Assembly (NCBI GenBank): GCA_033439295.1
Contig: JAVTLE010000001.1
Coordinates: 2,294,001 to 2,358,000, forward strand
Source: Deuterostichococcus epilithicus
Lineage: Eukaryota > Chlorophyta > Trebouxiophyceae > Prasiolales > Stichococcaceae
DNA length: 64,000 nucleotides
Reading direction: 5' to 3'
Shown here: positions 4,714 through 47,700 of the stretch, in pieces
Position numbering within the stretch: the stretch's first letter is position 1
How the letters are laid out: each line of letters opens with the position of its first letter
The notes under the pieces: generated by a model
What the model was told of the DNA's origin: nothing
The model's input: the letters and a program-made list of their open reading frames with translations, nothing else
The model's database searches: none
Made by a program: the position numbers and the translations under genes

Positions 4714-4747
<34 letters not shown>

Positions 4748-9110: not shown

Positions 9111-10473
9111 ACCATCCGCGCTATACAAAGCTGCGGGACTTGAACAGCGGCGGCTTTGGCTTTGTGCAGCTCTGCAGAGACGCCGCCTACGGCCGCCAGG
9201 TGCCTGCCTTGGAACTGGCAGTTTTTGAGAGCGCAGCAGACGCAGGGAGCTCTCGTGTACGATGCCTAGCTGTGGCGTGTGCGTCTGTGGCTATTAGCGC
9301 CGGCGGCGCAATCTGGGCGGCCAGATGACGGGCCGAAGTTTCATCGAGGTTGACGGCGCGGCAGCAGCGCCGCACACCAGCGCTGGCGCAGCCTGATCCG
9401 GCCTTTGCAGTGGCTGTGGCTGTTCTGCTGGCGGCTGCGAATGGGACGGGCGGGAGCGCTGCCAGCTGCTGCGGCCTGCTGCAGGAGTGGGGTCCGCTGC
9501 ACAAAGGTGGAAACATGGATCCCAAATGCATCTTTTTCATGCAGGTGGCCATCAAATTCGTGGAACGGGGCGCCGGTATCACCAAGAACGTGGTCCGCGA
9601 AATCCTGAACCACCGGCTGTGCTCGCTGCACCCGCACATCATCCAGGTGGGCTCCGCGGCCGCAAAACCCTGTCGTGCAAACCCGGCCGCGCACCCTACG
9701 GCAGCCTGTGGACTGTGTCGGTGAGGAGTAGCCGGCGTGAGGGCAGGAGTGCAATCCTTATGGAGCTGGCACCCTCATAAGACCTTATCCGCCATTTGTG
9801 GGGGTGCTCCGCGCCAGATACAAAACTTAGCAACGAGGGGCGGCTATCAAGTCTGGCATGATGAGCCAAGCTGTGAGGCGGGACTTGGAGCGGCAAGACA
9901 GACCAGTGATGTGTGATGCATGCTCCGCTGCTCATCCCATCTCTGTGCGACCCCGAAATTGCGAGAGCTGCTTCTGACGTGGCGTCACCTGCCCCTCACC
10001 AGGAGTGCTGTGGAGGCCGCTCCACCTCCACTCCTTATCTGCCTGCTTCCTCCCGCAGTTGTCGGGACTCGCTCCTGACGGGGCAGTGCCCAGGCACCAC
10101 CATGGAGCATGCAGCTGACAGAGGGGTTTCCTGCCTCCCAAACTCTGTCGACCATCTTTGGTTTTGCATGCGCGCAGTTCCGGGAGGTGTTCCTCACGCG
10201 GCGGTACCTGGGCATCACCATGGAGTATGCAGCGGGCGGCGACATGTTCGACTTTTTCGTGCGTAACAAGGCATTCGTCAATGTCAAGGTGGGCTCCGGA
10301 GGCTTGCACATCGCATCGGCTCCTTTCCAGTCCCAGTGCTTGCTGCTGCTGCAAGCTCACGGCAGGTTCCCCTCGCCATGGCTCCCGACGGCCTCGGGCT
10401 GCCCGGCGGTCAGTCGCTGTTCAGTGGCCTGCGGCGCTTGCGCTTCAGGCTAGCGACGGCACACTTGGGCGGC

Positions 10474-10531
<58 letters not shown>

Positions 10532-13068
10532 TGTTGGGCCTGGCGGCACGTGCGGCGCGCTGACTTCATCGGTTGCAAGTTGACGGGACATCTCTCAGAA
10601 TGGAGTCTGGCTGACGCTGATGAGTTTAAATTCTGGCCGTAGGGCCTGGCGGAGGACCTGGCGCGGTGGTTCTTCCAGCAGCTCATTGTGGCGCTGGACT
10701 TCTGCCACAAGAAGGGCATTGCCAACCGCGACATCAAGCTGGAGGTGCGGGTTGATTTGCAAAACATTCTGCCTCCAATCACCTCCCTAAACCCTGAAAA
10801 GATCTCAAAAGGACATTACAGTAATCGACGTCAACTTGGAGGAGCACCGCCGCCGCACCATGGCTCTCGAGCGATGGTGTCGCGCGGCCTCCGAGCTGTG
10901 GGCACTGTTGCTTGCGGCTGGCGGCGCGGTCACGGCGGGTACCGCCCGATGCTCGCACGCCTGCGCCTGGCGGCGCACTGGCCCGCCAAAGTCTACGGGG
11001 GCACCTCAGTGCGCTGGCTGCACGGTAGCGTGCTTACCTGCAACTGCCGGCCACCAAGAAAGCGCGAGCTCAAACTTCGGTCTCACCGGCGCGGCCTGCC
11101 CTGGTGCAGAATGTGCTGCTGGACGGCACGCCGGAGCGGCCGCTGCTCAAGATCTGCGACTTCGGCTACTCGAAGAACGAGTACCTGGACTCGCGGCCGA
11201 AGTCGCTGTCCGGCACGCCTGACTACATCGCGCCCGAGGTGCGCCATTGGCGCCGTTTGGTGATGAGATTGACGTACATTCTAGCGGGACGCGGCCGAAT
11301 GCTTGCGGGTGCGGCGTGGGGACACACGAATCGCTGTTAGCAGTAAGCCCGCGTTTGGTGTCATGTTGCAGCAGCCCAGAGCTCGGCGCCGATCATGCCA
11401 CGCCTGCCCTGTGGTATTGCCTGCTGCCAAAACATCTCACACCTTGATAAGTAGGCCCCCTCCACCACAGGTGCTGAGCAACCCCTCCTATGACGGCAAG
11501 GTGGCCGACATCTGGTCCTGTGGCGTCATGCTGTACATCATGCTCACTGGTGCGAATGCCCCTCCTGCGGCGCTGCTGCAGCACAACAGACGCGTGTCAT
11601 CGCCACGCTGGCACGCTCTCTGCCAGACACGGAGCAGGCCGGATGACTGAGCGCATGTCAGCCAGCGCCTGAGCGGCGGGCCACCAGCAAAGCTTTGCAT
11701 GGCCTGCGGGGGCTGCAGCTCCTGACAAACCCCCGGCTGTTCATGCCACGGTGTTGCGACCGACCCTGGCGATGCCCGAGCTGCGTGTGCCGCAGGCGCA
11801 TTCCCCTTCTGGCGGCGCGGCGATGAGCGCGCCAACAGCATTGTGCGGCTACAGCAGATCTTCCCGCGCATCCTGGCGGCAGAGTATGTGAAGCCTGTCG
11901 CCTCGCCGGTGCGATCTCGTCCGCGCCAAGGGTCCTGTTTCCACTCTTAGGCCTCCTCTGAAGTGCCAGTTGCTTGCCGTCGTCCTGGTCTCTTGCCTAG
12001 CAATCGGCTGCTGCCATAGAACATTCTTCCAAGCAACGGCTCTGCAGGCTGACAGCCATCTCGTGCCCCGCCTTCCGCGCCGCTGACTGCGGGTCGCTTG
12101 GCGTGTTTCGCCTTCAGCCTTCCAAGGGCAAGAGAATTGCACAAGCCCCTGCCCGTCTGAAAATGCAAAACATTGCATTGGATGGAGTCGAAGCTGCTGG
12201 TCGACTGCAGGTGTGCCAGGGCCTGCTGTGCCCATCAAAGTGCTGTGTCTGTGGGCGAACATATAGGTTCCCTTTTTCAATCCAACAGAAACCCCTTTTC
12301 CGAGAGGCGAGCGACGAACAGTGGGTGTTCATGTGCACATGCCAGGTGTGCCTGGACCTGCTGCAGGCGATGCTGACGCCCAACCCGGCGGAGCGCATCA
12401 CGCTGCCGGCCATCATGCAGCACCCCTGGTGCGCTTTGTCCTCCCGTGCCCGGCTTCGCCATCTGGCAGAGGCTGTCGTCAACCTCGTCGGGCCTCGCGT
12501 GGCCCTGTGTCTGAGGCAGTGCGTCAGCCGGCAATGCCAAGCGAGGCATCGACCCTCGCCACCTTCAGGCCACGGCCACTTGGTCACATCCCCTAGCGCG
12601 CATTTCGAATGTTGCGAAGCAGACACTGCACCGTGCACAGGTCGCCAGACTCAAGAGCCTGCCGCCTGACCCCACAGGTTCGTCAAGGACCTGCCGCCAG
12701 GCCTGCACGAGATGAACGACCACCTGGTGTCGGTGAGTCTCCACAGTGACCACTGCGACGCCGCGCCTGCTGCAGCAGCAGGCCGGGCACCGTTGCCTGC
12801 CTGGAGGGCTGAAACTGCTGCCTGCGCGATGGCTGCAGCCATGACCTGCATGACGCTGGCAAGCGCGACTGTACCAAAGCATCATGCCCGGCTGGAACTC
12901 GTGCCCCGGCAGCGGCGGTCGTGGTGGCACAAGTTTGGCTGAGGTTGGAACTCAGCCCTGGTAGGGTCTCGATTGCGAGAACCCTTACCTGATACATTCC
13001 TTACCACGCCGCAGGCCGCGTTCCCTCCGGAGGTGCAACCTGTGCAGGAGATCATGCACATCCTGCAG
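9111..13068 (+). CDS. SnRK2-like serine/threonine protein kinase (ends incomplete)
   Basis: SnRK2-type kinases phosphorylate Ser/Thr in osmotic, nutrient and ABA-type stress signalling. Exons read as 9111-9199 (Gly loop [11 protein letters not shown]), 9545-9646 (VAIKF with the ATP lysine), 10178-10288, 10643-10744 (catalytic loop NRDIKLE), 11110-11238 (CDFGYSK, activation segment GTPDYIAPE), 11471-11549 ([14 protein letters not shown]), 11796-11887 ([13 protein letters not shown]), 12346-12428 ([10 protein letters not shown]), 12678-12732 and 13015-13068. A short exon between 11887 and 12346 is probably missing from my model. The usual His of the HRD motif is Asn here (NRD), which I recall from algal and plant SnRK2-type kinases. 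The N-terminal exon and the C-terminal tail after 13068 were not located with confidence. Introns carry a GCA microsatellite and two ghost-exon copies. Confidence 0.85.
10059..10122 (+). pseudogene. Ghost copy of kinase exon 10178-10288
   Basis: The intron just upstream of the real exon contains a decayed copy beginning right after its own CGCAG acceptor. Real and ghost share spaced identities, and a run around the ATGGAG of the real exon (ghost CACCACCATGGAGCATGCAG). One indel shifts the frame. It looks like an old tandem duplication of the exon with its 3' splice site. Confidence 0.7.
10475..10530 (+). repeat. (GCA)n microsatellite in a kinase intron
   Basis: An uninterrupted run of about 18 GCA/CAG units lies in the intron between the kinase exons ending at 10288 and starting at 10643. 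It is non-coding in this gene model. Coding CAG runs also occur in GLE1 (about 4716-4748 and 6873-6899). Confidence 0.95.
12211..12232 (+). pseudogene. Short ghost copy of the start of kinase exon 12346-12428
   Basis: After an ACTGCAG acceptor-like site, 22 bases (GTGTGCCAGGGCCTGCTGTG and two more) match the first bases of the real exon (GTGTGCCTGGACCTGCTGCA) with few differences. The copy then diverges. It is shorter than the other ghosts and less certain. Confidence 0.5.
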
Positions 13069-14206: not shown

Positions 14207-16376
14207 CTAAGACGTATACGCAGGTGCTTGGCAGATCTGGCAATGTTCAGTGTGTAGCAGCTGCGCCATCACATCATTGAGCATGACCTCACGCTGCACC
14301 ACAGTTTGACAGCTACATGCAGAGTCACGTGAGTCCTCTCTTTCCATGTGCAGCAGCCTAAAATAAGCAAACCATTGCCTGCCCATGAGCTGCCCGAATG
14401 GGCGTGCGCCGGCACAGGCACTCCTGCTGACCTCCATTCGATTAGTGCGGCGCAGTGTTGTCTTCGGCTTTCTGCACGCAATACAGCCACGAGTTGCGTA
14501 GGAGCGTTTTCTACCAAGAGCCGCTTGACACATGGCTTTGACTGGCACTCTGGCAGCCTCGGCTGCACAGTGGCACTGCACAAGATCGGGATCAATGCAG
14601 ACAGGCGTAGCAGAAATTCACCTGCTCGATGTGGGGCAAGAACTTCCCTGCAAGATGGCACACACGCTATCGTCGCCTCCTGCATGAGTGGCTTTGTTGG
14701 CACAGTCGTCAGGGTGGATGATCCCAGAGCAGTCGTGGAGCCGAGGAAGAGAGGAAGACGCCTCGCCGTTGAGCGTGATGGCGATGCGCTTTTCGCCGCC
14801 CTTCCCGTCGATGACTTTCAAAGTGGCAAACATGTCGATGGCGCTCATGATGCTGCGCGACAGCAGCACCCCAACATGTCAAGACCAACACCCAGAAATT
14901 GCCAGGCTTTGTGAGGACCCAGCAACTGGATGCTGGTGGTAGACGGCAGGAGGGTGTGTGCAGGCCCGGGTTGCTCAGAACCGCATCCAGAGGCACAGGC
15001 CACCTCGGCGGCGGACAGGGGCCTGGCATGTGGCGCAGACAACGGGCGGCGGAGATTGCTGTGGGCGACCAGGCTGCGCTGAAAAAGGAATGACAACCCC
15101 TGATCTCCATCTGGAGCGCGGGGGCAACCTGATCTCTACACGAAAGGCCTGTGCGCACCCGTCGCCCAGCTCCTCGTTCATGACCGCCTTGATGGACTCG
15201 CCATAGTGCAACACCGCCTGCAGCCGCAAGAGCACCTGGTCCTTAGCTACTTTCGCACTGACCCGCATTGGCATCGGATGTTCGTCGTCCGAGTCGTGCT
15301 GTTCTTGCATCAACCCTCGTTGGCATTGCCCAAATTGGTGCTGGCACATGCAATCGCCGACTTGTGATGGCGCACAGATGGCCAGGTTTGCGCTGCTGTC
15401 CAGGGTTTCGGCACCCTGGGCTCCAGGTGGCACCCAACGTCCCACGGATGTCCCTGGATCCCGGCGGCGCAGCGGCCCCAAGAGCCGGCTGTTAGCAATG
15501 CAGGTGCCTGCCCTGCTACACATCTACCTCCGTGGTGCGGTAGATGTGCGGCTCCTGCACAATGGCAGGGTCGTACGATCGCATGGGGCACCGCTTCATG
15601 GCGTCGAGGTGGTCGTCCGTCAGCCCCGGCACCGCCGCCCGCAGCGCCTCGACTGTGCCCGCCTTGAGCTGCGCCTGCGGGACCCAAAAGGTTTTGGTAC
15701 CAGGGTTTTGTTGAGGTTCGCTCGCCTGCCCTCAGGTCCGTGTTGACCCGCCCGGCGGGATGGCATTGACGTCAGAGTGATCGCCAGAGTGCAGCGGCGG
15801 GCAGCAAAGTTAGGTAAAAAGGCTGACTGCAGCAGCAGCAGCAGCAGGAGCCGCAGCGCAATAGCCGGCTGAGCAGCAAATTCTTGCAGCACGGCCGTGA
15901 TCAAGAGCTGGCTGACAGACGGATTAACCGCCACGGCCAGAAGCGCGCACCGCACCTGGTTGTGGAACAGCTGTGCGGTGTACAGGTTGGTCAGTTTGAC
16001 CTCGTTTGCAATCTCTGTGAAGGTCTTGCCGCTGGCCTCCTTGGCTGCCAGCAGCTCGCTGACCAGCTCAGGCTTGGCTGCGAACAGGGGGTGCGGCAGT
16101 TGATCAGGGCGCGGCAGCTGAAACGCTAGATCAGGTTCACGCTCAGGGTTTCACATGATCATGGTACTGCGTGCCCATCCCGGCGCCGGCGTGCCGGCGT
16201 GCGCAAGGGCACTGTGGCTCGCCCTCCGCGATCAACGCGGTGGTGCTGGCAGAGAACAACGTTCCAGAGGGTCAGTGAGCTTCAATCAAGCAGAGGCGCA
16301 CGCTCATGCGCTGCCGATCGTCAGCCCAGTCCGACCCACCGAACTTGGCGGTGTTCCGGAACCCAGCGGACGCCAT
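14207..16376 (-). CDS. CYN: Cyanate hydratase (cyanase)
   Basis: Cyanase (EC 4.2.1.104) converts cyanate and bicarbonate to carbamate and CO2, and so to ammonia, detoxifying cyanate and recovering nitrogen. Seven exons join in phase: 16376-16340, 16125-15956, 15674-15528, 15217-15159, 14852-14767, 14647-14622 and 14293-14207, giving about 203 residues. The N-terminal helical domain ([20 protein letters not shown]) and the C-terminal catalytic domain closely resemble plant cyanases. The catalytic Arg and Glu (E. coli 96 and 99) lie in HIYRTTE, and the Ser (122) in GIMSAID. The exon ending at 14767 uses a GC donor (GCGAGG); only that junction restores [14 protein letters not shown] tail after the usual end ([19 protein letters not shown]) has a CxxC. 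The first exon encodes only 12 residues before an intron. Confidence 0.93.
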
Positions 16377-16688
16377 GACGACGCGACGTGTGTTCACCGG
16401 TCGAGCTACATCGCTGGAACGTCTATGATGGAGCCGCGCTGCCACTGACGTCCGCGAGATGGCCTGCACCTCACATTACGTCAGCACAGGTGTGCAGATC
16501 ATAGCAAGGTTAGGACCGGCAACTCGGGACGTCCGGCATCAAATCGCATGCCCGTACCTTCATCTTCGGCGCGTAGTTTATTGAAGTATGATTATGGTAC
16601 TGAGATGTTGCGCTGAAATACTTGTCCCGCAACTTTAGGCCTCTGGGGCGCCAAGCCGAATCTGGCGAAACGTAACCCAGCTGCAAAC

Positions 16689-16713
16689 AAAAAAAAAAAA
16701 AAAAAAAAAAAAA
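16689..16713 (+). repeat. Run of 25 A residues
   Basis: A 25-base pure A tract sits in a relatively AT-rich segment (about 16560-16720). It lies 110 bp beyond the GT31 stop, where it reads as poly-T on that gene's strand. It could be a simple repeat or the tail of a retrocopied transcript on the plus strand. Confidence 0.95.
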
Positions 16714-16754
16714 CATACTTCGTAATTTCCCTCTGACCACTTCAGCCTCCCAGC

Positions 16755-24445: not shown

Positions 24446-27400
24446 ATGCATCCGCCTGCCAGCACCTCCCGCCTCAGCGCAGGTAAGGGCTGGCACGGCC
24501 ATCACGACTGTGCAGCTTCGACTTAATCACAGAGACGCAACGCACTCGCAAGGAGACTTGCTTCCCTTCCGCATGCAGGCACAGCCGCCCTGTGTATTGC
24601 GGTGCTGGCCACCGCCGCGGCGCTGCTGCACATCATTCACGGCTACACCCCAGCCTGGCGCCTGACCAGCGGAATCCTCAGGCAGCCGCCGCAGGGTTTG
24701 CCGCCACTGACGGCGGAAGAGTACCTGATACAGCTGCTGTGCCCCGCCAGCGGCGGCGTGACCGATGGCCTTCCGGACGGCAAGGGTCTGCCCGGCGGTG
24801 GCGGCGGCGGCGCCGGGTCTGGAGGACCGCATCCTTCGATCGAGCGGCAGCGCTCCTGGGCTGCACCCCACATCGAGCACGACCTGCGGCGGTGGCGGCG
24901 CCGAGGCTTCCAGCGCTCATCGCTGGATGCACTGGTCGCCAACGCCAGCTACCTGGCAAGCCTGTTTGCTGCCTGCACACACTGTGGTTGTGTGTACATC
25001 GTAATCGACCGGATATGATTCAAGAAAATGAATCAATGCACTCCAGTCTGCTGAAGAAGTGGTGATGGCAGTGGCAGAGCATCACAGGCGCAATGCGCTG
25101 GCGGGTGCCATCCGTACAGAACCTACAGAGGCCGGCGTCTGACTGCCTTATGCCTTTCCACCCCCTTGTCTTGCAGTGGGGCGACCGCATCAATGCCTTC
25201 CGGTTCCAGATTATCAGTGGCGAGCTGTATGTGGACTCGTCCAAGATACCTTACAACCTGGTGGACGGCCAAGTGCAGTGGTTCCCTGGGCGGGAGGCAA
25301 GCCATTTTGCTCCCCTAGGCCCTGCCTGCCTGCATTGCCGCTGCCCTGCCAGCCTGCCTGCATCACCAGCATGCACGGCAGCCGTAACCGAAGCACTCGC
25401 CTGGCTCCCTGTGCACCCGCTGCAAGCGGAACCTCGTTCGCTGCCGTGCGAGAAGCATCCCATCGGCGCAGCCCTGCTCAGGCAACCTCCATGAACATGG
25501 ATGTCATGCCCCTGCACAGACTGCGCCCGGCAACATGTCCATCAGCGGCCGGGCACCGATGGCAATGCTGGCGCTGAAGGAGCTGCTGTACCTGTATCCC
25601 GGCCAGGTGCCGCCATGCAACCTCTGCACATATCACACCCTAAACCCTGCAGCCCGCTGCGCGCCGCCAGTACTTCGAGGCATCCTTGCCCTCACATTTT
25701 ATGCCACCTGTTGTATCCTATCACCATGCGAGTGACCGTCGGCTGCGGGCGACATATAAACTCGTGTCTGCTGGCTGACACCCCCCCGCAGCACACCCAT
25801 CGAAACAGCCCGACAGGCATCTGCAAATTCACAGAGCTGCCAACGTGCCAAACCGCGGCCAGGTGCCTGACGTGGACGCCTTCATCATCTTCAGCGACAC
25901 GCCGTGGGTGGAGCTGGGCGGCAATGCCGGGGCGCCGCCGCTGTTCGCGCCCTGCTCCGACGACGCGCACGCGGAGGTGCCCTTCCCCGACTGGAGCTTC
26001 TGGGCCGGCCGCAAGGTGAGCATCGCCACGGCCCTGTCTGACCTTCACCTCACCTGCAGCTGGGGTGCTTACAGGAAAAGACGGCTGCGGCAGATCAGGG
26101 GCCTGGTGGTTGGGCTCCGGCTGAAGTGCATCGGGCACCAGCTTGGGGCACTGGCGGCCTCTGTTCTGAGGCTGGCGGCGCGGAAGCAGAGCAGGCGGCT
26201 TGCCCAAGCACGCTTTTCGCCTTGCAGCGGCGAGGTGCACGGCCGCCTGCCTGGCAGCGCCGGCGCTGTGACGGGTTGGCTTGCGGCTGTCGCCGGTTAT
26301 CACGGCAGTGTGTGCAGCAGGACACGCCTGCGAAAGCATTTCGAAAACCTGCTGCCAGCACCTTCGGAGCAGGAACCCCCCCCCCCCTGCCCGCATTCTG
26401 CGGCTGGCAAGATCGATGCAAAGCAGACCTGCATTCGACCATGCAGGGCTGGGACGAGCAGCGGGCGCAGCTGCTGGCGGCGGCCGCATCCGCGCCGCTG
26501 GCAGAGCGCACCCCTGCCCTGCTGTACCGCGGCCGTGCGGACAAAGGCGGCGACGCCAAGCGCGCCGCCGTGGTCGCCTGCGCCGAGCAGCTGGCCCCCG
26601 ACAGGTGCGTCAGGACCCCTCACTCTGAAATTTTCAGGCAGACTGCCCTGTGTGCGCACCTGGTGGCTTCTTCCGCTGTGCTGTGCTGTGAGGGGCTCCG
26701 CACGGCGCCTGCGCCACCAGTGGGCCCACCGCTCCGTGCCCACTGTGTGCCAGATCAGGGAAGCCGTCCAGCGCTTCCAGTCATGACTCAGCAGACGATG
26801 TCTTTTCTGGGTCCCCCTTGGGTTTCGCTGCTGCAAGCGGTATGCGAGACTGGCAGCACCCGGCGTGACTGCTTGGGTGCGAGCCCCTGTGTCGCTGCAC
26901 CCTGCAGGCAGCACCTGATCGATGCCAAGAGCGTCAACTGGCTGCAGCACGAGGGACGGGTGCGTTGCGCTGAATCCGCTGCCCGCTATCATCCTCTCAT
27001 CCGTCTTGTGTGAGACCGCGATGCTGGTCAGAGGTGCATGCCTGTGTCAATGAGAGCAGCCCTGCCATTGCGTTGGCCGAGCCTCCTCTCTGTCTGCACG
27101 TATGCAGGTGTCCGCGGCGGCGATGTGTGACTGGCGCTACCTGATCTACATCGAGGCATATGGCTGGAGTGCGTCTCTGAAGTATCGGCTGGCCTGCGGC
27201 TCCGTCCTGCTGCAGGGTGAGTTGGCTCTCAAAGTGGGTTAGCAGCGGCTGGACCTGACAAATCAGCTCCGGCACAACCCCTTGCAAGAGGTTGGCACAG
27301 CCATGGAAAGCGGGCGAGGTGCCCTCGAGCTGGGACGACCACGAAAGCCAAAAAGAATGCTGGCCATGTCGGCCTGGACAGGGCAGATTCCACGCCCTGC

Positions 27401-28788
27401 CACAGCCGAGCCGCAGTGAGCGGAGTATTTCTATTGCGGCCTGCGCCGAGACAAGCACTTCCTGCGGCCGCCAAGACTCTGGATCGGACCTGTGCGCTGA
27501 CCCAGCATGCCCATGCGCCGCCGCAGTTAAACCCCAGTGGGTGGAGTGGTTCTCCCGCGGCCTGCACGCCGGCGAGCATTTTCTGGAGGTGCCGGCGGAG
27601 CCGCTCGACGCCATCTGCCCCGCCGTGGAGGCCGCCATCGTGGCGGCCGAGCGTCGCTTTGCAGCAGGTGAGGTCAACAGCGCGTTCCGGCCGTGGCTTC
27701 TGATGGCAGGCTGCCGTCGGCATGCTGCTCGGGCGCTGAGGCACTACAGGCTTTGCAGGCGCCCCTCGCAATACTTTCTGCCTCCTTCTCACGCTGGCGG
27801 TGTCAGTCAGCTTCCAGTTGTAGATGCCTCAAAAGGGAGGGTGCGTGCTATGTGCACTGGCGCTCGACGCCGCTGTGCTTGCGGCCGGCCTGCCTCCTCC
27901 CCGGCTGGGCGGCTGTCACAGTGGCCAAGTGCGGCGACGGCACAGGCCGGCTGTCGACGTGTCGCCTGTTAATGCAGGCGACTCGCAGGAGGGCAAACTG
28001 GAGCGAGAGCCGCGCAAAGGCGGCGGAGGCGCGATGCCCGACCCGCTCGCAATCGGCGCGGCTGGTACCACCTTCGTGCAGCATCAGCTGCGCATGCAGG
28101 TGGGCTTCCTCTCGTGCACGAGGCCGGCGCCTTGCTGTTGCTGTCCGGATGAGGCGGCCTGAAGCAGAGAAACCGTCCGCGACTGCTGTTCGTGCGTCGT
28201 GCTCTGCCCCCTGGCAGAGTGATTGTGTGGGCACCTCAATACCGAGAAGAAATGTTAACGGTAGCACAGGCGAAAAATCATGATGACAGTGGGCCGCCAG
28301 CGCAAGGCGCACATCGTGTCTTCATGTGGCACCAAGCTTAGTCCTCCCAGCATTAGGCCCCTTCCCACTCTAGACATGTACCCTACTGAAGCTCACCCAA
28401 CAGCTGGACCCTCAACTGCGTGCATGTGCCCTCCAGGAATGCACGAGTCTATTGCCGACGCAGAACCATTTCCTCAAACATCTTTGAAACCTCTGCCCCC
28501 AGGACATGCGCTAGTACGTGCTGGACGTTCTGGCGGCTTCGCTGCCACGAAAGCTTCTCAGTCAGAGCCCTGAAACCCTATTCAAACCCTGCGCAGGATG
28601 TGCGCGAGTACATGCTGGACCTGCTGGCGGCGTATGCGCGGCTGCAGCGCTTCAAGCCGGCGCCGTCCGCAGGCGCTGAGCGACTGACGGCGGCGCGGCT
28701 GCTGCGCCATTTCCTGCTTGACGAGGACCGCGCAGCAGTTGCAGATGCGCATCCCTGGCTGCGCTGCGCGGCCGCGCGCGGGCAGTGA
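24446..28788 (+). CDS. GT90 (CAP10/POGLUT-like) glycosyltransferase, copy 1
   Basis: GT90 enzymes transfer glucose or xylose in the secretory pathway. Eleven exons join in phase to about 515 residues: 24446-24482, 24579-24955, 25177-25296, 25520-25606, 25863-26015, 26447-26604, 26908-26959, 27108-27216, 27527-27667, 27978-28099 and 28597-28788. A tiny first exon plus the next gives a short N-terminus and signal anchor (TAALCIAVLATAAALLHII). Family motifs include VPDVDAFIIFSDTP, GDAKRAAVVAC, WRYLIYIEAYGWSASLKYRL (ligand-binding core) and KPQWVEWFSRGL. The introns after 24955 and 25296 begin with GC (GCAAGC), supported by alignment with the paralog at 51010, which has GT there. Ghost-exon copies lie in two introns. 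Substrate is unknown. Confidence 0.88.
27407..27467 (+). pseudogene. Ghost copy of GT90 exon 27527-27667
   Basis: About 60 bases upstream of the real exon align to it without indels over GAGxGGxxxT...GCGGCCTGC. In the aligned frame the ghost reads EPQ-stop-AEYFYCGLRRDKHFL against KPQWVEWFSRGLHAGEHFL. The stop (TGA at about 27417) replaces the Trp codon. It is an old tandem exon copy, now part of the intron. Confidence 0.8.
28503..28546 (+). pseudogene. Ghost copy of GT90 last exon (28597-28788)
   Basis: After an acceptor-like CCCCCAG, the copy reads DMR-stop-YVLDVLAAS against DVREYMLDLLAAY of the real exon start. The stop is TAG at 28512-28514. It lies about 90 bp upstream of the real exon, with a telomere-like AAACCCTATTCAAACCCTG between the two. 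Confidence 0.85.
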
Positions 28789-31212: not shown

Positions 31213-33956
31213 ATGATGCTGACTCTCGGGGGGTCTACTGCCTGCGGGCCGGTCGCTGAAGGCAGCAAATTCACTGTCATCGCCCAGCACGCCTGCGGCG
31301 CAAACCCCCGTCCGCATGGGTGCCATCCGACGCAGCGCCCGGCGCAGCCGCACCGCCGAAATCTTCGTGTGTCATGCCAGGCGGCCAGCAGCGCGTCTGC
31401 AGCCGGTGCCACAACGGCTCTGGGCTCGCCAGCATGGGAGGAATTCGCCGCCGCGGCGTCAGGTTAGATCCCCTTCCCACAACGCTGCGAGATCCTCCGG
31501 CCGAGAGTCACGGAAGAGCTCCTGGTGTGTAGCAGACCTCATCTTGGGTGCAGAACGGGGCTCGCTGCATGGAATGTGCAAGGGAAACGTCAAACGCATC
31601 CAACACCGCTCCGCAGGCGAGTGGAGCGGCATGGCGGTGACCTACGGGCCCGACGGCCAGGCGCAGGAGCTGCCGTACCAGTACGTGCCGTCCGCCTTCA
31701 GGGAGTGGGACCAGGTGCCCAAGGACTGGCACACGCAGTGCAGCAGCCTGGCGGACTCTGGCGGTCTGCTGATAAAGCTGAAGCGCCTCATGCCGATCGT
31801 GGGTGCGCCCCTCGTTTCAACCGCGTCCTGAGGACGGTAATGTGGTTTGTGACGCCTGAACCCTGAAGCAGGACTCTGAATGCCACGTCGCATCAAGACG
31901 CACTGACAGCCGTGCAGCCTGACAAAACGGTCTGCGCCCGTGCCAAAGGATCCAGGCTGCCCTTCAGCATCAGAATGTGCCAACTGACGAATCATTTGAG
32001 CGTTGCGCTCCCTGATGCACTTGCGGGCGCAAGCCCTGCAGTGGGCCCTTTGGGCTCACCTCGTTGCTCACAACACCTGCCGCAAGGCACCGAGGACACA
32101 TGGCGGCAGTGCTCGCGCCTCCTGCGCCTTTAGGTTCATTGGGGTGTGGCGGCACGCCGACGGTGACTGAGTGCTTCTCATTCTGTGTATCACGAGGGTC
32201 GCAGGGCTGACACGTTGGTGTTGCATCGGACGAGCGCTGGCGCAGTTCCTGCCCGGCTCTGGGTCGACATCAAGCCAATGGTGCCGACTCTAATTCCGCT
32301 GACTCCTACACTACACCTGCTGCTCAAGGCTGCGAGGCGGACGCAGTGGCGTTCACAGAGGACGAGCAGCGGGCGCTGCGCTCAGAGCCGCGGCACCAAC
32401 ATGAGCCGAAGACGGTGCTGCGAAACGGTAGCTACAGCACCGGACCGCGGACACTGTTCGACCTCACCCGTGCCCGTGTGGAGCATTGTCTGGTGCGCGC
32501 GGCTCGTGTTGATGGACTGGTCTCCATTCTGAACGCTGCCTGGAGCTTCATCCGCCGCCAGTCACTGGTCCGCCGCGATGCCGGCCGCCCTGCCTGTTCG
32601 GGTCGCTGAGCAGCTGCCGCGTGTGTTGCCGTGTTGAACAGGTGGTGCCATGGCATGTGTTGCCGTATCGAGCGGCGCAATTCCATGCTGCGCTGCCGCC
32701 TCTGCCTGACCATGACATCACCGGATTTCAGAAACTGATAGGCGTGGCATTGGTGTGCAGGCCAGGGAGGCCGGCCACCGGACGCGCCTGGTGTTCAACC
32801 TGAAGCGCTTTGAGACGTCAGAGCCCTGGACGCTGGAGAGCATCGAGCAGCACCTGGAGCAGCGGGACTCGGGGTATACCAGTGGCCAGTCGCTGGCGGC
32901 ATGCGGGTGCGTTTGATCTTGATGGAAAGCCAACTTTCCTCTAGTGCGGGTTCCAGGAGCGCGTTGCTCCAGGGCTGAGGTGAATGCCGTCATGTCCCAC
33001 ACAACCCACTCCTGTCGCCAATTGTGCTATGATGCAGCCCCAGCAGTGCTCCTACGATTTCGACGGACGCTTGGTGTCGCCAATGTGGCAGCGCGCTGCA
33101 CCGTGATCTTGCTGACACATGCCTGGTTCCAACTGCTTTGCGCTGCTGCTGACACAGCGTGACAGACTTGACAGACCGCCGCAGAGCGCGACCGCTGAAT
33201 AAGCAGCGGTGGCCGGCCCTACATTCCTAGATTGCATTGGCTTTTGTTGCGGTCCTGATTCGAACGGTGCTGCGGCGCTGCGGCACAGGTACAGCATGAC
33301 GAACCTGACGGACAAGCCGCAGACCGTGGCTGCGGACCTGGCGGGGAGCTGGGCCGTGACGAGCCACGCGGCCTTCGAGCTCGACGGCGGGAATGGCTTC
33401 CGAGACAGCAGCGCGCCAACGCCAGACAGGTGCGCTGCCGCTGGACTCTCAAACAGCACGGTCAATGCAGAGACTGTGGTTGGCATATGACGGCAGAGCG
33501 GCCTTTGATGCGGTTGGGCGGGCACGGTGGTCGCATAGGTGGCCGCAAGTGCAACAGCAAAGGCAACACCCAGCAGCTCAATAGCGTTTGGCACGAGGAC
33601 TCAGTCGTTGCCGACCGGCCGTGGACGAGGAGCAGGCTGCTGTGCAAGGCTGCAGTGCACAGCTGCATGGCGGCTGCGTGAAGCACCGCCTACTCACAGC
33701 ATGCATGCGCAGCTCCCGAAAGCCGTCTGCCGGGCTGCCCGATGACGTCCTGCCCGCGCGCAGGCTGGATGTCAGCGAGGACGCGCTCCTGCTGCACGGC
33801 GGCGCATGGTGCGCATTCAGCGCCGGCGCCGGCGGCGCCCTCACGCTGCAGGCCGGCTGGCTGGTCGGTGAGGGCAAGAGCACGGCGGCAACCAGGACCT
33901 TTGCCACTGAGCGGCTCACGGCAATGACGTTCACGACAGCAAAGAGGGAGTCGTGA
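31213..33956 (+). CDS. DUF3598-like plastid protein of unknown function
   Basis: DUF3598 proteins are lipocalin-like beta-barrel proteins of cyanobacteria and plastids with no settled role. Exons read 31213-31462 (Arg/Ser/Ala-rich transit-like N-terminus ending SPAWEEFAAAASG), 31616-31802 (EWSGMAVTYGPDGQ), 32329-32492 (CEADAVAFTEDEQRAL), 32761-32906 (HRTRLVFNLKRFE), 33289-33429 and 33766 onward (LQAGWLVGEGKSTAATR). The phases agree at each junction. The paired 'GEWxG' and 'GWLV' signatures suggest the family, but I cannot confirm it without a profile search. The start is uncertain (ATG at 31141 is an alternative). A strong GTGAGG after GWLVG suggests the frame to 33956 could instead be intron, with a further exon downstream. 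Confidence 0.55.
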
Positions 33957-38711: not shown

Positions 38712-41700
38712 ATGGCGCCCAAAAAGTCAGCCAAGCGGTCAAAGACAGCCAGTGAGCTCGAGCCAGAGGTCGCGGTACGGATGCACGATGCGCTGCAGGC
38801 CGGCCAGCTGGAACCAGCTGACCTGGCGACCGTGTTCAGGGCGGATGCGCCCGGCTGCGCTGCGACGGACATGCCCGCAGCAGGATGCAAGGGCCGCAAG
38901 GACAATCCGAACTGCCTGTGCGGCCTGGCGCCCGCGCCCGGCAGTTTCCGGCGCAAGGGCCTGTGGCAGAAGGATCCGGAGGCGGTGGCCAAGCTCGGTG
39001 TCGACCCCGCGGACTCCCGGCGACAGCAGGTGCACCTACAGCCTGCACAGCGGCGCCCTGCCTTGGACTGCGAATTGTTTTCATGGATGCGCTGTGCAAC
39101 TGCATTGTCCCGGGACCTCAGGTTCTTCCTCACTGCGAAGCATTGACGGCTGCAGCTGCCCTCCCGTGCTAGCCTTTCCTGTGCCGCACCAACACACAGC
39201 CACATCGCCATAGGCAGCGCTTCCAAGAACCAACCCTGGTGCTGACACCTAGTCACCAGCCTCAACTGCCTTCCGGTGCAGGAGGATGGCACGCCTGTGG
39301 GCCTGAACAACCTGGGCAACACCTGCTATGTCAATGCGGCGCTGCAGTGCCTGTTTGCCAACCATGCCTTCCGGGCGGGGGTGTACGCGCTGGAAGGCGC
39401 GCGCAATGCCAACGACCCCATCATCCGAGAAACAAGGTGCAGCTTGTACACAGGCGATGTGAAACAGACGGCGGCTGTTATTATTCAGGGACTGGAGCTC
39501 CTGCACTGCTGGGCGCCACCGCACACTGCGGGCAATCCCATCATCAGGGGACATCAGGAGCAACGATGGACCACCCATTGTAACCATTCATACAATTCCA
39601 CAGTCATCTTCTGCTGAAGATTTTGCAGACGCGGGTGACGCATGCTGCCTGCAGATCTCGGATGCATGAACGTGCCGACAGCTTGACTGCAAACCTATGG
39701 GCACCTCCGCCTCACACTGCCTGTCGGTCGTCCCACGCTGCCGCTGGCCAGGCGGGCACGGCTGCAGGGACTTGTCCCGGACAACCGATCCACACCTCGA
39801 TGGACGTCGAAACACACCGCAGGCGGCTCTTCGGGGAGCTGCAGGCGGGCCCGCGCGCGAGCGCCGACCCGACCGCCTTCGCTGCGACCCTGGCCCTGGA
39901 CCATGGCGTGCAGCAGGACGGCCAGGAGTTCACCAAGTTGCTGTTGACGCTGCTGGAGCGCCTGTTCCGCGAGTCCGGCGCGCAGGTGGAGTCACATCAG
40001 GCTGTTGGCCCTCTATATCTATATCTATAGTAGCCAATCTGAACAGATGCAGCTTTCAGGGGACAGAGCTGCGGCTGACGCTGCTGGAGTGCCTGTTTCG
40101 GGAGTCCGGCGCGCAGGTGGGGTTCACATGCAGGCTTTTGTGCCTGGGGGGCCCTCCACATGTGAGGCAGCCTGCCGGGATGGACGCAGCCGTCGTGGGA
40201 CACACGCTGCTGCTGGCGCTGCTGGGGGCAGTAGTTCCCCAGGCAGGGCGTCCAGTTGGATGTTCCGGAGTGTATCATGGTGCAAATGCCACACCTGTCC
40301 AAGCGGTTTGGATGCATCTGAGAGGTGCTGGAGGGGCTTTTCTGCTGTGTCCGGCGTCCAGCTGGATTGAGGGTTTTGTGACCGGCCTTCACATGGTGTG
40401 GACACCGATGGGGGGAAGAGGGAGATTCGCTGCAGGGATGTGGATTGCACAGTCAAATCGTGGAGGCTGTACGTGCCAGACCGGGTCCTTGGCCCCGACT
40501 GCCTGACCTGCATGCCGCCGATTTGGCATGCATTGCGACGCGGATGCATGTTAGCATGCAAAGTTAGCAGACTTACATGCCCCTGCATGAAGCTCACGGG
40601 GGCATTCAGATGGCAGTTACATCTGGCACGCCAGGCTTCTGCCATAATTGCATGCGCACTCAGTGTTGGACAAGGGTGTTGGACAAGGAGTTTGCAGCCC
40701 CCATGACGTGGATGTTGATGCAGGCTGTCATGCTGGCAGCCGGTGCATCCACATGCAGCTTGGCAGCTGCATGTGGGGAATTGGTAGACCACCATGCACA
40801 GCCCGACCCTGGCTGGCCTCGTATGTTGCTGTCGTACGGTTGTCAGCTAATCTCCTTGGATATAACCATCTTCGTACCACATCCTACAGGCGGTGCAGGA
40901 GCTGGTGCCGAACCTGTTCCGCGGACAGTATGCCTACGAGACCACCTGCCGGGTGGGTGTCAGTCTCCCACCAAGTGTCACTGGTCGCCCTACCAAAAGG
41001 CTCAAAGTAGTTGCCTCGTGGGGCAAGCACAGATCTATCAGCGTGTTGCATGTCCGGCAGCCCTGCATGCATTACAGTCTGGGGTCCACATCACAAATTA
41101 GACTCAGGCGTGACATTGCAATGACGGCAGGTGTTGCGACTCACGGCCCTCTTTCGAAAAGTAACACAGCAACAGGGATGTAGGCATAGAAGAGCGCCCG
41201 TCCGAGAAGAGCGGAGGCATCTGCAGCTGGATGTCGTGTCAGGCACCAGAAGTGAAAGTGCAACACAAATTCAACTGCAGGAGTGTGGACGGCAGTCGGC
41301 AAGCTCGAAGCGGCTGACCGACTTCTACGAGCTGGACGTCAACATCCGCGGCTTCCCTTCCCTGGCTGCAAGCCTGGTGTGCCCCCAGCCGTGCTTGCAC
41401 CCATCTGTTGGTTCGGTTGCCGGCACGGAAGTAGTGTTGTGCAGCGACAGCCAGTTCTTCTGCACGCTGTGGCATCACGGCCGTCATCGCGGCATCAATG
41501 GACAGTCGAGCGTGCTTGCCGCAAACCCATGAACACGCTTTTACTTGAGTCCTTCGCAACTGACTCCAGTGCCTGCAGCTGGAACTGCTGGCGGCGACTG
41601 ATAATCTTCTAGTAAACTTTTTTCCTGTTCATCTGCCACTCCTTTACGCTGCTGCAGAGCATTTCCCAGCAGCTGGCGCTGCTGTGTGGCGAACCACCGA

Positions 41701-44700
41701 CACTTGAAACCGTCTTTACAAGGAGTTGGGACTGCCCTCTAATTGGCAATGCGCTCACCTGCAAACGAGCTACCTCGAATTGGATCTGCTGTGCGGCGAC
41801 ATCCAGTACTATTGCAAGGCGTGCCCCGCCAGCTTCTAGCGGACTGATCACAGTCGACGACCGGTTGCGCTGTCCACAGTCTGCTTCCTGAGTTCCTTTG
41901 GCACTTTCGCTGCAGACCAGCTACCTGGAGCCGGAGCTGCTGTGCGGCGACAACCAGTACTTCTGCGAGGCCTGTTCCGCAAAGGTGGACGCAACCCGGC
42001 AGATGCGGCTGCAGGCTCTGCCACCCCACCTGTGTCTCAGCCTGCAGCGCTTCGTCTTCAAGCCCGAGGTTCGCTTCGAAATGTTGAAATGACGAAATGT
42101 GCACCGCGATGTCACCTGCTGCTGCTTGGGGCTGCCGCCCCACCTGAGCCTGCAGCGGTTCTCCTCAAGCTCGAGTTCAGATCGATGATATGCATCCAGA
42201 GTGCCTGCAATGCGGGCCGCTGTTGCCACATCTGTGCCTCAGCCTGCAGCACTTTATGTCTGCAAGCCAGAGGTGGGTGTGTCGTGCGGTTCCCGATTTT
42301 CGCAGTCCCTGCCGCCCAGCGGCTGACTGATATGCGACGGCTGCGATGTCAGCCCGCAGCGTTTCGTGGTTTGAGCCCGAGGGCTGCGCGCCAGGGATTG
42401 GCTCTGTGCCTGGCTGCTGCCTCGCAGTGCTTTGCTGCTATTTGCCCGTAGACTGCCACGTCTCAGCCGCGTCGAATACTGAGTATCGCAGGCTAATGCA
42501 GGCAGTATTTTTGGATTGTGCAGCCAGGCCTCCATCTCGGCCATTGCATGAGCCCAAGCCCATCCCTGGCAAGAAGCACCTGAAGTAACTCGTTGTGCAT
42601 GCATGCGACATGCTGCAGGCTGAGGGTATGACGGCAGCTGCCGGCCCCGCTGCCCATGTCAGGCGGCGCATTGCCAGACACAGAACACCCGCTACTGATC
42701 GCTTGCCAAGCAGCGTAACATTGCTTGCCGTCTCGCGCTGCAGACGGGGACGAAGGTCAAGGCGACGGACAAGTTTTCCTTCCCGGTGGCTCTGGACCTG
42801 GGCGCCTTCGTCTCGCCGCCAGACAGCGACAGTGGCGGCACCGCCGGCGGCGGCTGCAGCGCGGCAGCCAACGGCACGGGAGCCACCGGCCCAGAAGCCA
42901 ACGGCATGGCGGCCAATGGCGCGGCGACGGGTGGCGGCAGGCGTGCCGTGAAAGGTGCTGCGGCGGACGGCAGCATGGAGTACGACCTGGTAGCCATTTT
43001 AATCCATAAGGGCGCCAGTGCCAGCCACGGCCACTACGGTGCGAAGATGCAGGTCGTGCGAGCAGGGAGAAATCGGCTGGTTCGGCCACTGATGTTTGTC
43101 ACCGATGTGAGTTCGACTGCGCTTCCGTGGAGAATCAGCTCGCCGGTCCCAGCTGTTCTGCAGCCGTGAACAGACTGTGCACACTGCTGGCATGTGAGAA
43201 GGTCACTCGGCGCCCCATGCATGCGAGTGCAACGGCCAGGCATGGCAGCTGAGCGAACCAGCAAACAGCTCGGCACAACCACGCCGTTCCTCATTAGGAC
43301 TTTCAGCAACGACAGGCACCTCGCATGTGACCTCCAGTCAAGTCTTATACAGTCAAACTTTTCAATTTTGGGCGCTTCTTTTGTGCAGTGGCGCACGTGC
43401 GCAATGAGGAGACGGGCGACTGGTGGCGCTATGACGACTCGGAGGTGACGCGCATGAGGGCCGGCCCTGCGGGCGAGCACGGCGACCACGGCACTGCCGC
43501 CGACAAACGGGTGCGCGGTGCACTCACGCCCAGGGTGCGGGCAGAGCCGCGGCAGGAATCAGACAGTTGGCCGGAGCTCGCGAAAAGGAGCCGCCGGTTG
43601 CCTGGCAAGAGCGCGGCGGCACAGCTTGCCACGCGTGGCACCTGGATGCCAGGCGCCAATTAAGCATAGCTGTGCTCGCAAGATTGGAAAGTACCCTTTA
43701 GGCAGCTGTGCCACATGCAGCATTCGAGTCGGTGCAGAAACCCTGCAGGCCAAGGTGAAGGCAAAGGGCAGCGAGGGGGCGGCTGAGGGGGCGGGCCCGG
43801 AGGTCATCGACCTCGAGGCTCCACAAACAGACGCTGCGCCGACAGCGGCGCCGGGCTCCAAGGTTGCTGCCGGCAGGAAGGCGCCTGCCAAACGGGCGCT
43901 TGGCAGGTCGCGGGTGCCCAAGCGCAAGCCCGGCAACGACCCCGCCGCCGGCACAGCCAACGGCTTGGCGGCGGGCGGCGGCGGCAGCGGCGGCGGTGCC
44001 GCACCAATGGGCATCTCAGGCGACGGTGCGGACGGCGGTGACGGGGCGACGGCAGCGGACAGCATCACATCGGCAAATGCATACCTGCTGGTGTACCAGC
44101 GCCGCACAGGCAGCCCAGCACAGCCGCCCCCAGCGCTGCCGGACAGGTAATAAGAAGCGGAATGAGGACTGGATCGCTGTTGGATTTGCCGCAAGCAACA
44201 TGCGCATCATGCTGGGCGCCCTGACGTTGACCAGAACCAGCGGCCATCGTGCCTGCACAGCCGGCGCTGCAGAGTGCCGGGGCTCAGTCAGGCGCCGCAT
44301 GCCATTGGTCCGCTCGCTTTTACTTGCGCCTTCACGTAAACGTGGTGATGAGCCTTTCAGCATGACGCGCGCCGTCTTCTCATACATTATGACAGCTTAG
44401 GTCTGTATGACGGCTGTGGCGCAGCCTGCGTGCGGACATGGAGGCGGAGCAGATGGCATTCGACGAGTCGTGCGCCGCCTACCAGGTGACCCCGCCGCCT
44501 TGTTTCGATTCTGGGGTCAATGAACACCACACAGCTGAAAAATGGCCAGCTCTAGATACCAACTTTTACGCAAAATGCGTCAAGACTGGCTCTAAGAGCA
44601 TGCTGGTACCTGAATGGTTGTGGGGTCCTGGGGTTGGCCAACATGCAGGCTTTGCGGTGAAGGCACCATTGGTGGTCGGGGGCCCAGCACAGTGCCGCAC

Positions 44701-47700
44701 GATCCATATGATGTATGTCAAAGTACATATTGTATCTGCCGTATCTGCTGTCGTATCTGCGACTCCCAAATAGACCCCATGGAACGCAGACTGCGCGTGA
44801 GGCGGCGGTGGTGGCAGTGGAGGCCCGCCGCGCGGATGTTCGCCGTGTGCTGGAGCTGGCACCTGCGGAGCCGGGCGCAGAGGCGGCGGCGCGCTGGGTG
44901 GATGCCGGCTGGCTGGCCGGCTGGGCAGATGGCCTGGAGCTGCCGCCGCCGGTCGACAATGCGCCGCTGCTGTGCGAGCACGGCAAGCTGGACCCGTTCA
45001 AGGCTGCAGGTGCGGGTTTGACTCCCAGGCTCTTTTGGGCTTAGGTTTTAGCAGGCCGGCCGAGAGTGCTAACCACTGTTGCTGAACCTTTCTGAGGCCG
45101 CAGGTTTGTCTTGAGTTCTAGGATTGGGGTTCCAGCTTCAGCGGCTCTCCGGGGGAGGGGCTGCTGCGCAAGCGCGGCAGGTTTGACCCGTTTCAGCGGC
45201 TCTCAGGGGGAGGGGCTGCTGCGCAAGCGCGGCAGGTTTGACCCCTCTCAAGGTCGCAGGCACTCTCAGACTGAGGTGCTCACATCAAACACAGCTTGAC
45301 GGGCTCTGCCCGAGGATTGTGGAATGAGGCAACCTTGCGGTGCAGAGGCGGTGTAGAGGCTGTGTTTACAGGCTCCTATCTTATTGCACCCTCTCAAACC
45401 ATGGCTCGCCGCCCTGTTCAACCTCATCCCAAAGCAATCCTGTGCATGGGTGCAGCAAGATCTTGGGTGTTGCCGGCGGTGTGGCCGGCGCTGCGAGCGG
45501 CGCATCACAGCGGTTCTGATCTGGCACTCACCCTGCATCAGCGTGATATCAGCGCAGCGGGCGTCTCAGGCGGCATGGGAGGCACACCGTTGCATGCGGC
45601 TCCATCTCGACAGCTCCCTCAGGTCCTGATCGATCCCTCAGATCCTCCTGCTGTTGACGCAGAGGGCAAGCGGGTGTCGGTGGCGGCGTGGGAGGCGCTG
45701 CGGGCGGCGCACCGCGGCGGCCCTGAGCTCGGCCTGCAGGACGCATGCACGGTGTGCCTGGAGGCCAAGCTGCGCGGCATCGCCGCGGCACGGGAGGCTG
45801 GCCAGGTGTGCGCTGACGGTCTACGGTGTGGTTTCCACCGCTGCAATCAGACGAATGGCCGCACCTGATGCTGCGTGAGGTCATGGCTCCGCCTCAGAGT
45901 GGCCATGTCAGGGCGCGGCCGCGCCGGGCCGGGCCTGCGGCACTGGCTGCACCTGGCCCAGGCCCAGCAGCTGCCTCAAGACATGGAAACCGAAGAGGAG
46001 GTCCCCAAGGAGCTGATGAACATGCCCCCGTAAGGCTCTGTGGGTCATGCCTGGATGACACTTGCGTGGTCGCATTGCAGGCGCGCGGCGAGGTGCTGGC
46101 GCAGCTGGAAGCACTGGAAGCGGAGAGTGGCGCCCCGCCGCCGCCAGGCCACTTTTTCATCTCCGCGTCCTGGCTGATGTGCGTCCCCGCACCACTGCCT
46201 AGTGCTGAGCGAGGCAAGCCGGGTCTGCAGCAGCAGCCCCGCGCAATTTCAGAAGCGGACGACCTTTACACTGCCGCAGTGCAAACTTGCCGCCGGTCCA
46301 GCTGCCGCGCATGAACAACTGTTCAGCAGCATCTTATGGGCCCCCCCGTGACTCGTTCCGTGCAACTCTTAATCGAGTCCCTGCACAACAACCACCTGCA
46401 AGTGCGCTTCTGGTCCCGGGGATCTGCAGGGGCTTCAAGCGGCGCACCGGCAAGTCCATCGGCGCGGCGGCTCCGACGGATGGCATCGCCTGCCCGCACG
46501 GGCAGCTGGTCCCGGAGTCGCGCGGCGGCCGCGCCCGCCGCGCCGCCGTGCCGCCGCCCNTCNNGGCGCACTTTGCCGCCGCCTGGCGCGAGGCGCAGGG
46601 GTCTCGGCAGGCGGAGGGGGCTGCCGCCGCAGCGGACAGCGGGTGAGCGCCTCAGGACTATGCACCGGCAGGGTGCATCGCAGCGGTTTTGGTGGCGGCA
46701 TCTTGGTCGTCGCAAATTCACTGGCATTCAGCACCCGCGCATGACGTCAGCAACGGCGGGAGGCGCTCACGCGGTGCTCCCAGCCGTCGCGCCTGTGCTG
46801 CCTGCGCGGCAGAGGCTTTGGCGACCCCGAAACCTTGTGCTCTGCTTGCAGCCCGGTCGTGGCGGAAGATGGCGTCATCGTGCTGGACTCGCCACCCCGA
46901 CAGCCACCAGGTGCGGTGCCTGATCCGTTCATGCTGGGGCGGCTTACCAACACGCATTGCCTGATGCACACTTGTTCCCTTGTGCCCTGCTGCGATTCAA
47001 TCACAGCGGAGCGTTTGTCTGTCGCAGGCTCATCAGTATGCTGACGGGAACCTTGCAGATTGGTAATCACTGGGTCTGGAGCACTTTGCCTGCAGTCCAC
47101 CCTCCCGACAGACTACCCTTCCCGAAAGAACTCTCATTTGGCTGTCAGGTGCGGAGCGGCAGGCAGACGGCGCCAAGGGTACGTCTGGTAGTGCAGTGCC
47201 GCCGTCGCCGCAGCCACTTCCAGAGTTCCGCGTCGGCGACGCGGCCGAGTGCGAGCTGTGCGCCAGCGGGCTGCAGTCGGACCTGCACCAGCACCAGGCA
47301 GGCAGCTCTTGCCTCCCTGCAGCATGGCAGCGGCTGCTTCTTGCACGGGATCAAACTGCTGCGGCGGACGCCGCCGTCACGCTGGTTGAGCGCCAATTGT
47401 GTCAAGATGTGTCTTGCAGCTCATGGTGGAGCCCTTCGTTCCGACGGTGTCAGCGCGGGCCGATCATCCCAGCTTCGGTCTCTGATCGCTCTGCCTTTAG
47501 GACCCCCCCGTCATTGGACCAGGCACGGTCAGAAGCTCAGGATTTGGCAGGGTGCTGCTGCAGGGTGTCCGGTCGCAGGCCACCAGCGAGCGGCAGGCGC
47601 TCGGCAACCTGGCGGCGGGGACGCCGCTGGCGCTGGAGCCCGGCGCTTCCTACTTCCTGCTGCCGCGCTGGTGGCTCGCCGCCTGGCGAGCGTACCTGCA

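Follow-up and report, generated by a model that had tools for sequence, protein, structure and literature searches.

Exon-derived sequence in and beside introns has been described in several systems, as far as the accessible parts of the published texts go. In the potato RdRp gene, a direct tandem duplication across an intron-exon boundary spans the intron and the adjoining exon, and the former exon part has become intronic (PMC4974935). Tandem exon duplication leaves extra exon-like copies beside their source within a gene, some of them intronic exons that are unannotated or degenerate (PMC9013439, PMC12343006), and exonic nucleotides (nt) with a homolog of at least 80% identity amount to ~0.08% in fly, 0.06% in worm and 2% in human (PMC9013439). 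Repair by capture of proximal DNA yields short, closely linked duplications, among them some of splice sites, and its intensity is reported to have fallen over time in primates (PMC2671141), and introners arise through a recurrent genome-wide process that shapes introns (PMC9860276). Here we describe copies of exon edges that lie in the introns adjoining their source exons in the green alga Deuterostichococcus epilithicus, found in a 64-kb window (the whole stretch of DNA under study, positions 2,294,001-2,358,000 of contig C1, GC ~62%) and in further stretches of the genome.

The algal copies share features with each of these systems and differ from each. The potato duplication is one recent case that created a new intron, whereas here many junctions are affected, the intronic copies have decayed and several may lie in one intron. 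Unlike tandemly duplicated exons, only 28-78 nt of exon edge are alike, without coding constraint. Proximal-DNA capture was described in vertebrates, and the near-doubled spacing of the present copies agrees better with tandem steps. An introner is an element that has spread to many genes, whereas each algal copy matches its own adjoining exon. The kinds of event, namely tandem exon duplication, degenerate intronic exons and boundary-crossing tandem duplication, are known, but the commonness of partial junction arrays was not found in print. The open-licence literature of PubMed Central (PMC), in the partial texts covered, held no report that we could find of junction-anchored arrays in an alga, nor of a short-intron genome in which partial arrays of this kind are so common.

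Exon-edge copies in introns

The sample of 264 kb consisted of the window and 20 arbitrarily picked 10-kb stretches (L-numbered below) from the 46.8-Mb assembly of 21 contigs. Genes were modelled with a gene finder trained on the sequence itself, starting from parts of USP and GT90 exons chosen by hand; N, present in the window and some loci, was treated as A. It returned 59 gene models with 536 introns (median 225 nt), assigning 27% of the sequence to exon and 51% to intron, and a predicted splice consensus of CAG followed by GTG(A/C)G across the donor junction and TGCAG followed by G across the acceptor junction. Introns and splice sites throughout are those predicted by these gene models alone. 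The kinase, GT90 and USP models were trimmed by hand before splicing, and USP exon 41916-42068 was merged by hand from predictions at 41916-41984 and 42048-42068. Once spliced, all three are open reading frames in which the expected domains are found without the copies: Pkinase (PF00069, E 2e-55), Glyco_transf_90 in GT90 copy 1 (PF05686, E 8e-50) and UCH (PF00443, E 1e-47). One stretch, L023 (28% GC, organelle-like), was excluded from all statistics after the comparison of 12-base seeds. It belongs to contig C21 (211,271 bases), which is AT-rich (27.6% GC in the 10 kb read) and looks like an organelle genome. Intronic copies that the gene finder had called exons were omitted from the sets of real copies used for the exon-control, per-side, codon, junction, two-copy, length and window tables.

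Exon-edge copies in introns are real and genome-wide. At a score of at least 30, 13 of 417 introns matched their upstream flanking exon and 17 of 417 their downstream one, compared with 2 and 0 for the reverse complement, 1 and 0 for shuffled sequence, and 0.6 and 0.2 for exons of other genes (mean of 10 repeats); exons of the same gene that were not adjacent gave 1/407. Counted by side, 41/401 downstream and 22/390 upstream sides reached p<=0.02, where ~8 each are expected. At z>3 there were 36 downstream and 20 upstream sides against 10 and 8 on the reverse strand, and at z>4, 25 and 11 against 2 and 3. The 197 exon-intron sides of the window alone gave 13 against 0 on the reverse strand at a z of 3.5, and 16 against 3 at 2.8. 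The initial annotation had claimed copies of adjacent exons in a kinase, GT90 copy 1 and a USP gene, and had proposed comparing own-exon matches with control matches. Alignments confirm copies in all three genes, and own-exon matches stand far above the shuffled, other-gene, reverse-strand and non-adjacent controls.

At a score of at least 30, copies turn up in 15 of the 21 stretches, and the carriers amount to 18 of the 59 gene models and 32 of the 536 introns; 35 of 923 exon-intron sides carry a detected copy. Exonic nt with an adjacent-intron match of at least 80% identity number 958 of 71,547, or 1.34%, compared with 69 nt on the reverse strand and 0-44 nt in five other-gene controls; methods differ from those behind the fly, worm and human values (PMC9013439, seen in part), and the comparison with them is rough. 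Self-comparison of the window gave 20 matches (E<0.01), of which 10 joined two GT90 paralogs, one was long-range direct and one inverted; the other eight are direct pairs at a lag (the offset between the two members) of 82-207 nt, six of them exon-edge pairs and two ordinary tandems. Direct pairs at lags of 57-290 nt were present in 11 of 17 arbitrary 10-kb stretches, some of them in-exon repeats, and inverted matches within these 17 stretches were confined to a diverged gene pair in L019. With 12-base seeds, L023 still being included, direct repeats were in excess up to a lag of ~280 nt and inverted ones only below 40 nt.

The source is the exon edge that faces the copy-bearing intron, and the similarity reaches 28-78 nt into the exon by hand count. 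Among 32 copies, 20 derive from acceptor and 12 from donor edges, 26 lie 0-15 nt from the exon edge in alignment, and the lag has a median of 128 nt (quartiles 106 and 148, range 90-297), mostly falling between 90 and 150 nt. Orientation is strongly biased. Pairs at lags of 60-420 nt with a score of at least 34 were direct in 73 cases, including repeats inside single exons, and inverted in none, and 30 of the direct pairs lay at 100-140 nt. At a score of at least 30 the same lags gave 100 direct against 4 inverted pairs, and lags of 500-900 nt (score at least 34) gave 1 direct and 2 inverted.

Copy-bearing introns hold one to four copies, the maximum being in USP intron 41377-41915. A second copy (z>2.5) was found on 10 of 29 sides whose first copy has z>4, on 2 of 28 with a first z of 2-3 and on none of 430 with a first z<2. 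The ratio of the two lags was 1.77-2.29 on 9 of 11 two-copy sides (for example 90/180, 102/209, 118/219, 112/207 and 124/254), against 2.8 of 11 expected for random placement (P 9e-5, for a ratio band picked after seeing the data). Since second copies lie near twice the first lag, many copies appear to form short tandem arrays with steps of roughly one full unit. Copy-bearing introns exceed those without a copy in length (median 424 nt, n=32, against 256 nt, n=371; p 2e-6; all introns of at least 150 nt), part of which may arise because longer introns offer more room for copies; a histogram of intron lengths showed no periodic peaks by eye. The spread over stretches and gene models, the near-doubled arrays and the longer introns support the earlier suggestion that local duplication recurs and leaves its fossils in introns.

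Proposed tandem duplication across the splice junction

We propose, with somewhat better than even confidence, that direct tandem duplications of ~90-150 nt recurrently span splice junctions, with the outermost junction used and the inner copies decaying. Under this proposal, short direct tandem duplications of that size would recur in the genome, and a unit lying across an exon-intron boundary would repeat the exon edge together with the adjoining intron. The gene would stay functional as long as splicing used the outermost junction (the first of the donors, or the last of the acceptors). The inner copy, now intronic, would mutate freely, and further steps of about equal unit would produce short arrays and a longer intron. 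The exon copy would be recognisable longest, as only one of its two sequences changes, while the intron parts of the unit would change in both copies. The mutational step would be replication slippage, unequal exchange or break repair, the splice sites in use are presumably those of the gene models, and most of the duplication events are probably old.

Matches to the adjoining exon far above controls, the direct orientation, the lag peak at 100-140 nt, the near-doubled spacing and the even divergence over codon positions speak for the proposal. Comparison of the flanks suggests that the unit may include intron. Against permuted controls, intron-facing flanks scored higher (z 3.1, n=34; z 3.7, n=27; pairs from one array are not independent), while exon-interior flanks did not (n=9 and 16); alignments of more than 150 columns and scores below 36 were left out of this test. 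In five of the six best-preserved pairs 11-24 nt of intron are aligned, and in L022 similarity covers whole units, introns included (1925-2323/2186-2561, 292/412; 4530-4873/4677-5006, 243/363). This stretch is unusual in its own right, with dense tandem arrays across several predicted exons and introns at 372-833, 1880-2561 and 4530-5006, perhaps from a local burst. Neutral tandem simulations at a divergence (d) of ~0.4-0.5 substitutions per neutral site, resting on assumed indel and transition rates, reproduced the copy identity, the length and the near-background flank. Detectable pairs among simulated old duplications show a sharp loss of similarity at the junction, so such a loss fits old tandem duplication.

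Several observations weigh against this proposal. Similarity drops to background at the splice junction in the 26 pairs profiled (17 acceptor, 9 donor; 9 of the 35 matches, with an edge distance above 15 nt, were left out). In six well-preserved pairs (identity at least 0.86 over at least 37 columns) the intron-facing flanks score at most 20 past the aligned part, whereas the share of neutral simulated pairs with such flanks was 0-6% at d<=0.2, rising to 23% at d 0.3 and 57% at d 0.4. Copies of higher identity do not have more similar flanks (16.8 vs 16.9; 15.6 vs 18.2). Clearest are the pairs L006 9767/9894 (39/41) and L007 3184/3291 (42/46), which leave 86 and 61 nt of the unit without clear similarity. 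The fit therefore needs mostly old and few young events, which a constant process would not give. A further count concerns the position of the events: at a score of at least 30, 46 span a junction and 3 are intron-only or intergenic, besides 5 in-exon and 1 mixed, whereas 1500 randomly placed simulated duplications gave 512 junction, 457 intron-only and 282 intergenic (739 together), 100 in-exon and 149 other events. The ratio of junction to intron-only and intergenic events was 18:3 at a score of at least 50, 11:3 at 60 and 8:2 at 70, the last with p 0.02 against random placement, from few data in which the decay bias partly remains. All 19 listed shorter junction pairs leave 40-167 nt of the unit unaligned.

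An exonic source is a possible though doubtful explanation of these points. The exon edge, with at most ~10-25 nt of intron, would have been copied by templated capture in break repair or by double template switching, or an old copy would have been rewritten by gene conversion from the adjoining exon. The sharp fall at the junction, the unrelated remainders of the six well-preserved copies and the 46:3 excess all agree with it, and in vertebrates capture of proximal DNA bears the hallmarks of synthesis-dependent strand annealing (PMC2671141, text seen in part). However, intron-facing flanks are above chance overall, the array steps approximate a whole unit and not the exon part alone, two L022 arrays carry introns, and old tandem duplications explain most pairs, the well-preserved cases numbering only six. 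Those six copies may have been either refreshed from the exon or copied with little intron. The simulations, the flank test and the array spacing weaken exon-only copying as the sole cause.

The 46:3 excess also suggests that the process targets junctions. With divergence drawn uniformly from 0.02-0.40, simulated pairs were detected in 68% of junction, 47% of intron-only and 51% of intergenic cases, and above 0.26 intron-only pairs became undetectable while junction pairs were still found. A mostly old population and faster loss of intron-only pairs thus explain much of the junction excess, perhaps not all, and the strong targeting that 46:3 would imply is weakened by this and by the small number of well-preserved events. 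Of the earlier claim that exon plus junction is copied, the copying of edges stands and that of whole exons does not; targeting is not proven, as purely intronic duplications fade sooner. We consider it unlikely that exon edges are preferentially copied or rewritten ~120 nt away and that junction-anchored arrays of dead edges are a main building material of introns. Detection at d 0.4-0.5 was 10-28% in the simulations, so the 35 of 923 sides seen could stand for ~14-36% of sides. A recent 55-nt tandem duplication in a USP intron (45137-45244; Tandem Repeats Finder (TRF) period 55, two copies, 98%), the unit of which carries a decayed exon-edge copy, indicates that duplication is not wholly extinct, an old copy having been doubled anew.

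Decay of the copies and other explanations

Differences between copy and source are about evenly spread over codon positions 1-3 (70/429, 78/434 and 84/428 in 32 copies; 3 of the 35 matches, with an exon-edge distance above 40 nt, were left out), and the lag modulo 3 is 0, 1 and 2 in 11, 13 and 8 copies. Thus, the copies decay without coding constraint while the exon is nearly fixed. The aligned parts contain in-frame stops in 2 of 32 copies and frameshifts in 5 of 32. By eye, 8 of 17 acceptor copies retain AG exactly at the aligned junction, or 9 of 17 if a 1-nt shift is allowed; for GT in donor copies the counts are 2 of 9 and 3 of 9. In the description given by the initial annotation, the in-frame stops and indels and the inclusion of the splice site hold weakly. 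Its statement that copies decay with distance fails (Spearman -0.15, p 0.41, n=32), and the nearer copy scores higher in 6 of 11 two-copy intron sides.

Selection on the copies as alternative, mutually exclusive or poison exons is improbable. The gene finder called several copies exons, among them 40060-40116, part of the copy at 40067-40140, and at L006 9767/9894 a GTGAGC donor and an upstream AG are kept. The even divergence over codon positions and lags that are not multiples of three argue against such exons, as do the stops and frameshifts, the incomplete retention of AG and GT, and the three named domains found without the copies. The even divergence also contradicts the earlier alternative of failed mutually exclusive exons under selection.

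A gene-model artefact, in which the introns would be coding and the pairs would represent repeated protein motifs, is highly improbable. Some exon-exon pairs would fit (L003 5257-5559, L005 8225-8678, L014 7170-7690), but in-exon pairs were classed separately, the lags leave remainders of 0, 1 and 2 modulo 3 (11, 13 and 8 copies), the codon-position differences are even, and the kinase, GT90 and USP domains are matched without the copies. Intron creation by a duplicated exonic AGGT segment, with the copy left as the intron, has very little in its favour: such gain leaves exon-like sequence in introns (PMC3443670, PMC2891723, texts seen in part), and a few intron starts resemble the downstream exon (55678-55741; L022 intron 654-767), but it predicts similarity to the upstream exon at the intron's 3' end and to the downstream exon at its 5' end, while by inspection most copies lie within ~130 nt of their own source exon's junction. 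Gene conversion from lost paralogs, offered as an alternative by the initial annotation, would not predict copies of adjacent exons only (non-adjacent 1/407) at a lag of ~120 nt. An introner or transposon family was rejected, with intron matches to exons of other genes at background and 15 between-locus against 62 within-locus matches (E<=0.01, 17 loci).

Copies in the window and their meaning

The copies found in the window and their source exons are collected in Table 1.

Table 1. Source exons and exon-edge copies in the window (lags in nt; fractions are identical over aligned columns).
Feature	Position	Strand	Evidence
Kinase exon, source of two upstream copies	10178..10288	+	gene model, Pkinase match
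Kinase, copy 1 of start of exon 10178-10288, upstream intron	10063..10115	+	lag 118, 41/53, z 7.2
Kinase, copy 2 of start of exon 10178-10288	9959..10006	+	lag 219 (~2x 118), 36/48, z 5.7
GT90 copy 1, weak copy of start of exon 27527-27667	27411..27464	+	lag 121, 38/54, z 4.2
GT90 copy 1, copy of start of last exon 28597-28788	28507..28569	+	lag 94, 47/61, z 4.4
Another gene, copy of start of exon 33289-33429	33154..33198	+	lag 137, 34/45, z 5.3
USP exon, 3' edge and donor site the source of downstream copies	39823..39985	+	gene model, UCH match
Copy of 3' edge of exon 39823-39985, donor and 22-24 nt of intron	40067..40140	+	lag 131, 64/74
Third unit of array from USP exon 39823-39985	40197..40225	+	lag 137 from previous copy, 25/28, z 3.8
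USP exon containing the CGDNQYFC stretch, with four upstream copies and one downstream copy	41916..42068	+	gene model
Copy 1 of start of exon 41916-42068	41765..41829	+	lag 151, 52/65, z 12.7
Copy 2 of start of exon 41916-42068	41651..41692	+	lag 258, 33/42
Copy 3 of start of exon 41916-42068	41566..41598	+	lag 351, 29/33, z 4.4
Copy 4 of start of exon 41916-42068	41435..41463	+	lag 503, 25/29, z 5.5
Copy of 3' edge of exon 41916-42068, downstream intron	42226..42274	+	lag 202, 40/49
USP, two copies of end of exon 44790-45009	45160..45259	+	lags 194, 249; 27/33 and 35/44
USP, copy of start of exon 45663-45805	45465..45525	+	lag 207, 48/61, z 6.6
USP, nearer, weaker copy of start of exon 45663-45805	45551..45625	+	lag 112, 51/67, z 3.4
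Copy of start of exon 49680-49853, beyond the region of the initial annotation	49509..49581	+	lag 176, 56/70, z 6.6

Two contiguous two-copy tandems at 57981-58155 and 58988-59148 (periods 88-90 and 81-82, 81-84% identity), probably intergenic or in an untranslated region or intron, are alike over the whole unit, unlike the exon-edge pairs. The two GT90 paralogs (24446-28788 and 51291-56039) lie on the same strand ~27 kb apart with the USP gene between them and share 72-94% identity in matched exon parts. They were unable to date the copies: those next to the two last exons each resemble both exons more than they resemble one another. Pairs of diverged gene copies in L019 (3670-5445/6932-8343, inverted) and L018 (3559-5162/8458-9801, direct), spaced 1.5-4.9 kb apart, are possibly useful for dating exon-edge copies. 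Trinucleotide runs of GCA, CTG and GCT occur at 10475-10530, 4715-4747 and 6874-6899 (18.7, 11 and 8.7 units); the GCA run falls in a predicted kinase segment that is dispensable for the full domain. At 14442-16077, part of a gene model on the minus strand has predicted peptides that may resemble cyanate hydratase.

If exon edges are truly targeted, the mutational path would be one that we have not found described. Gene finders will call such copies exons, as the one used here did, and the copies offer a test of how the spliceosome chooses between duplicated splice sites. Introns evolve fast in sequence, which makes their lengthening in compact genomes difficult to trace. Here many genes contain copies whose template is known, and part of the history of intron growth is legible.

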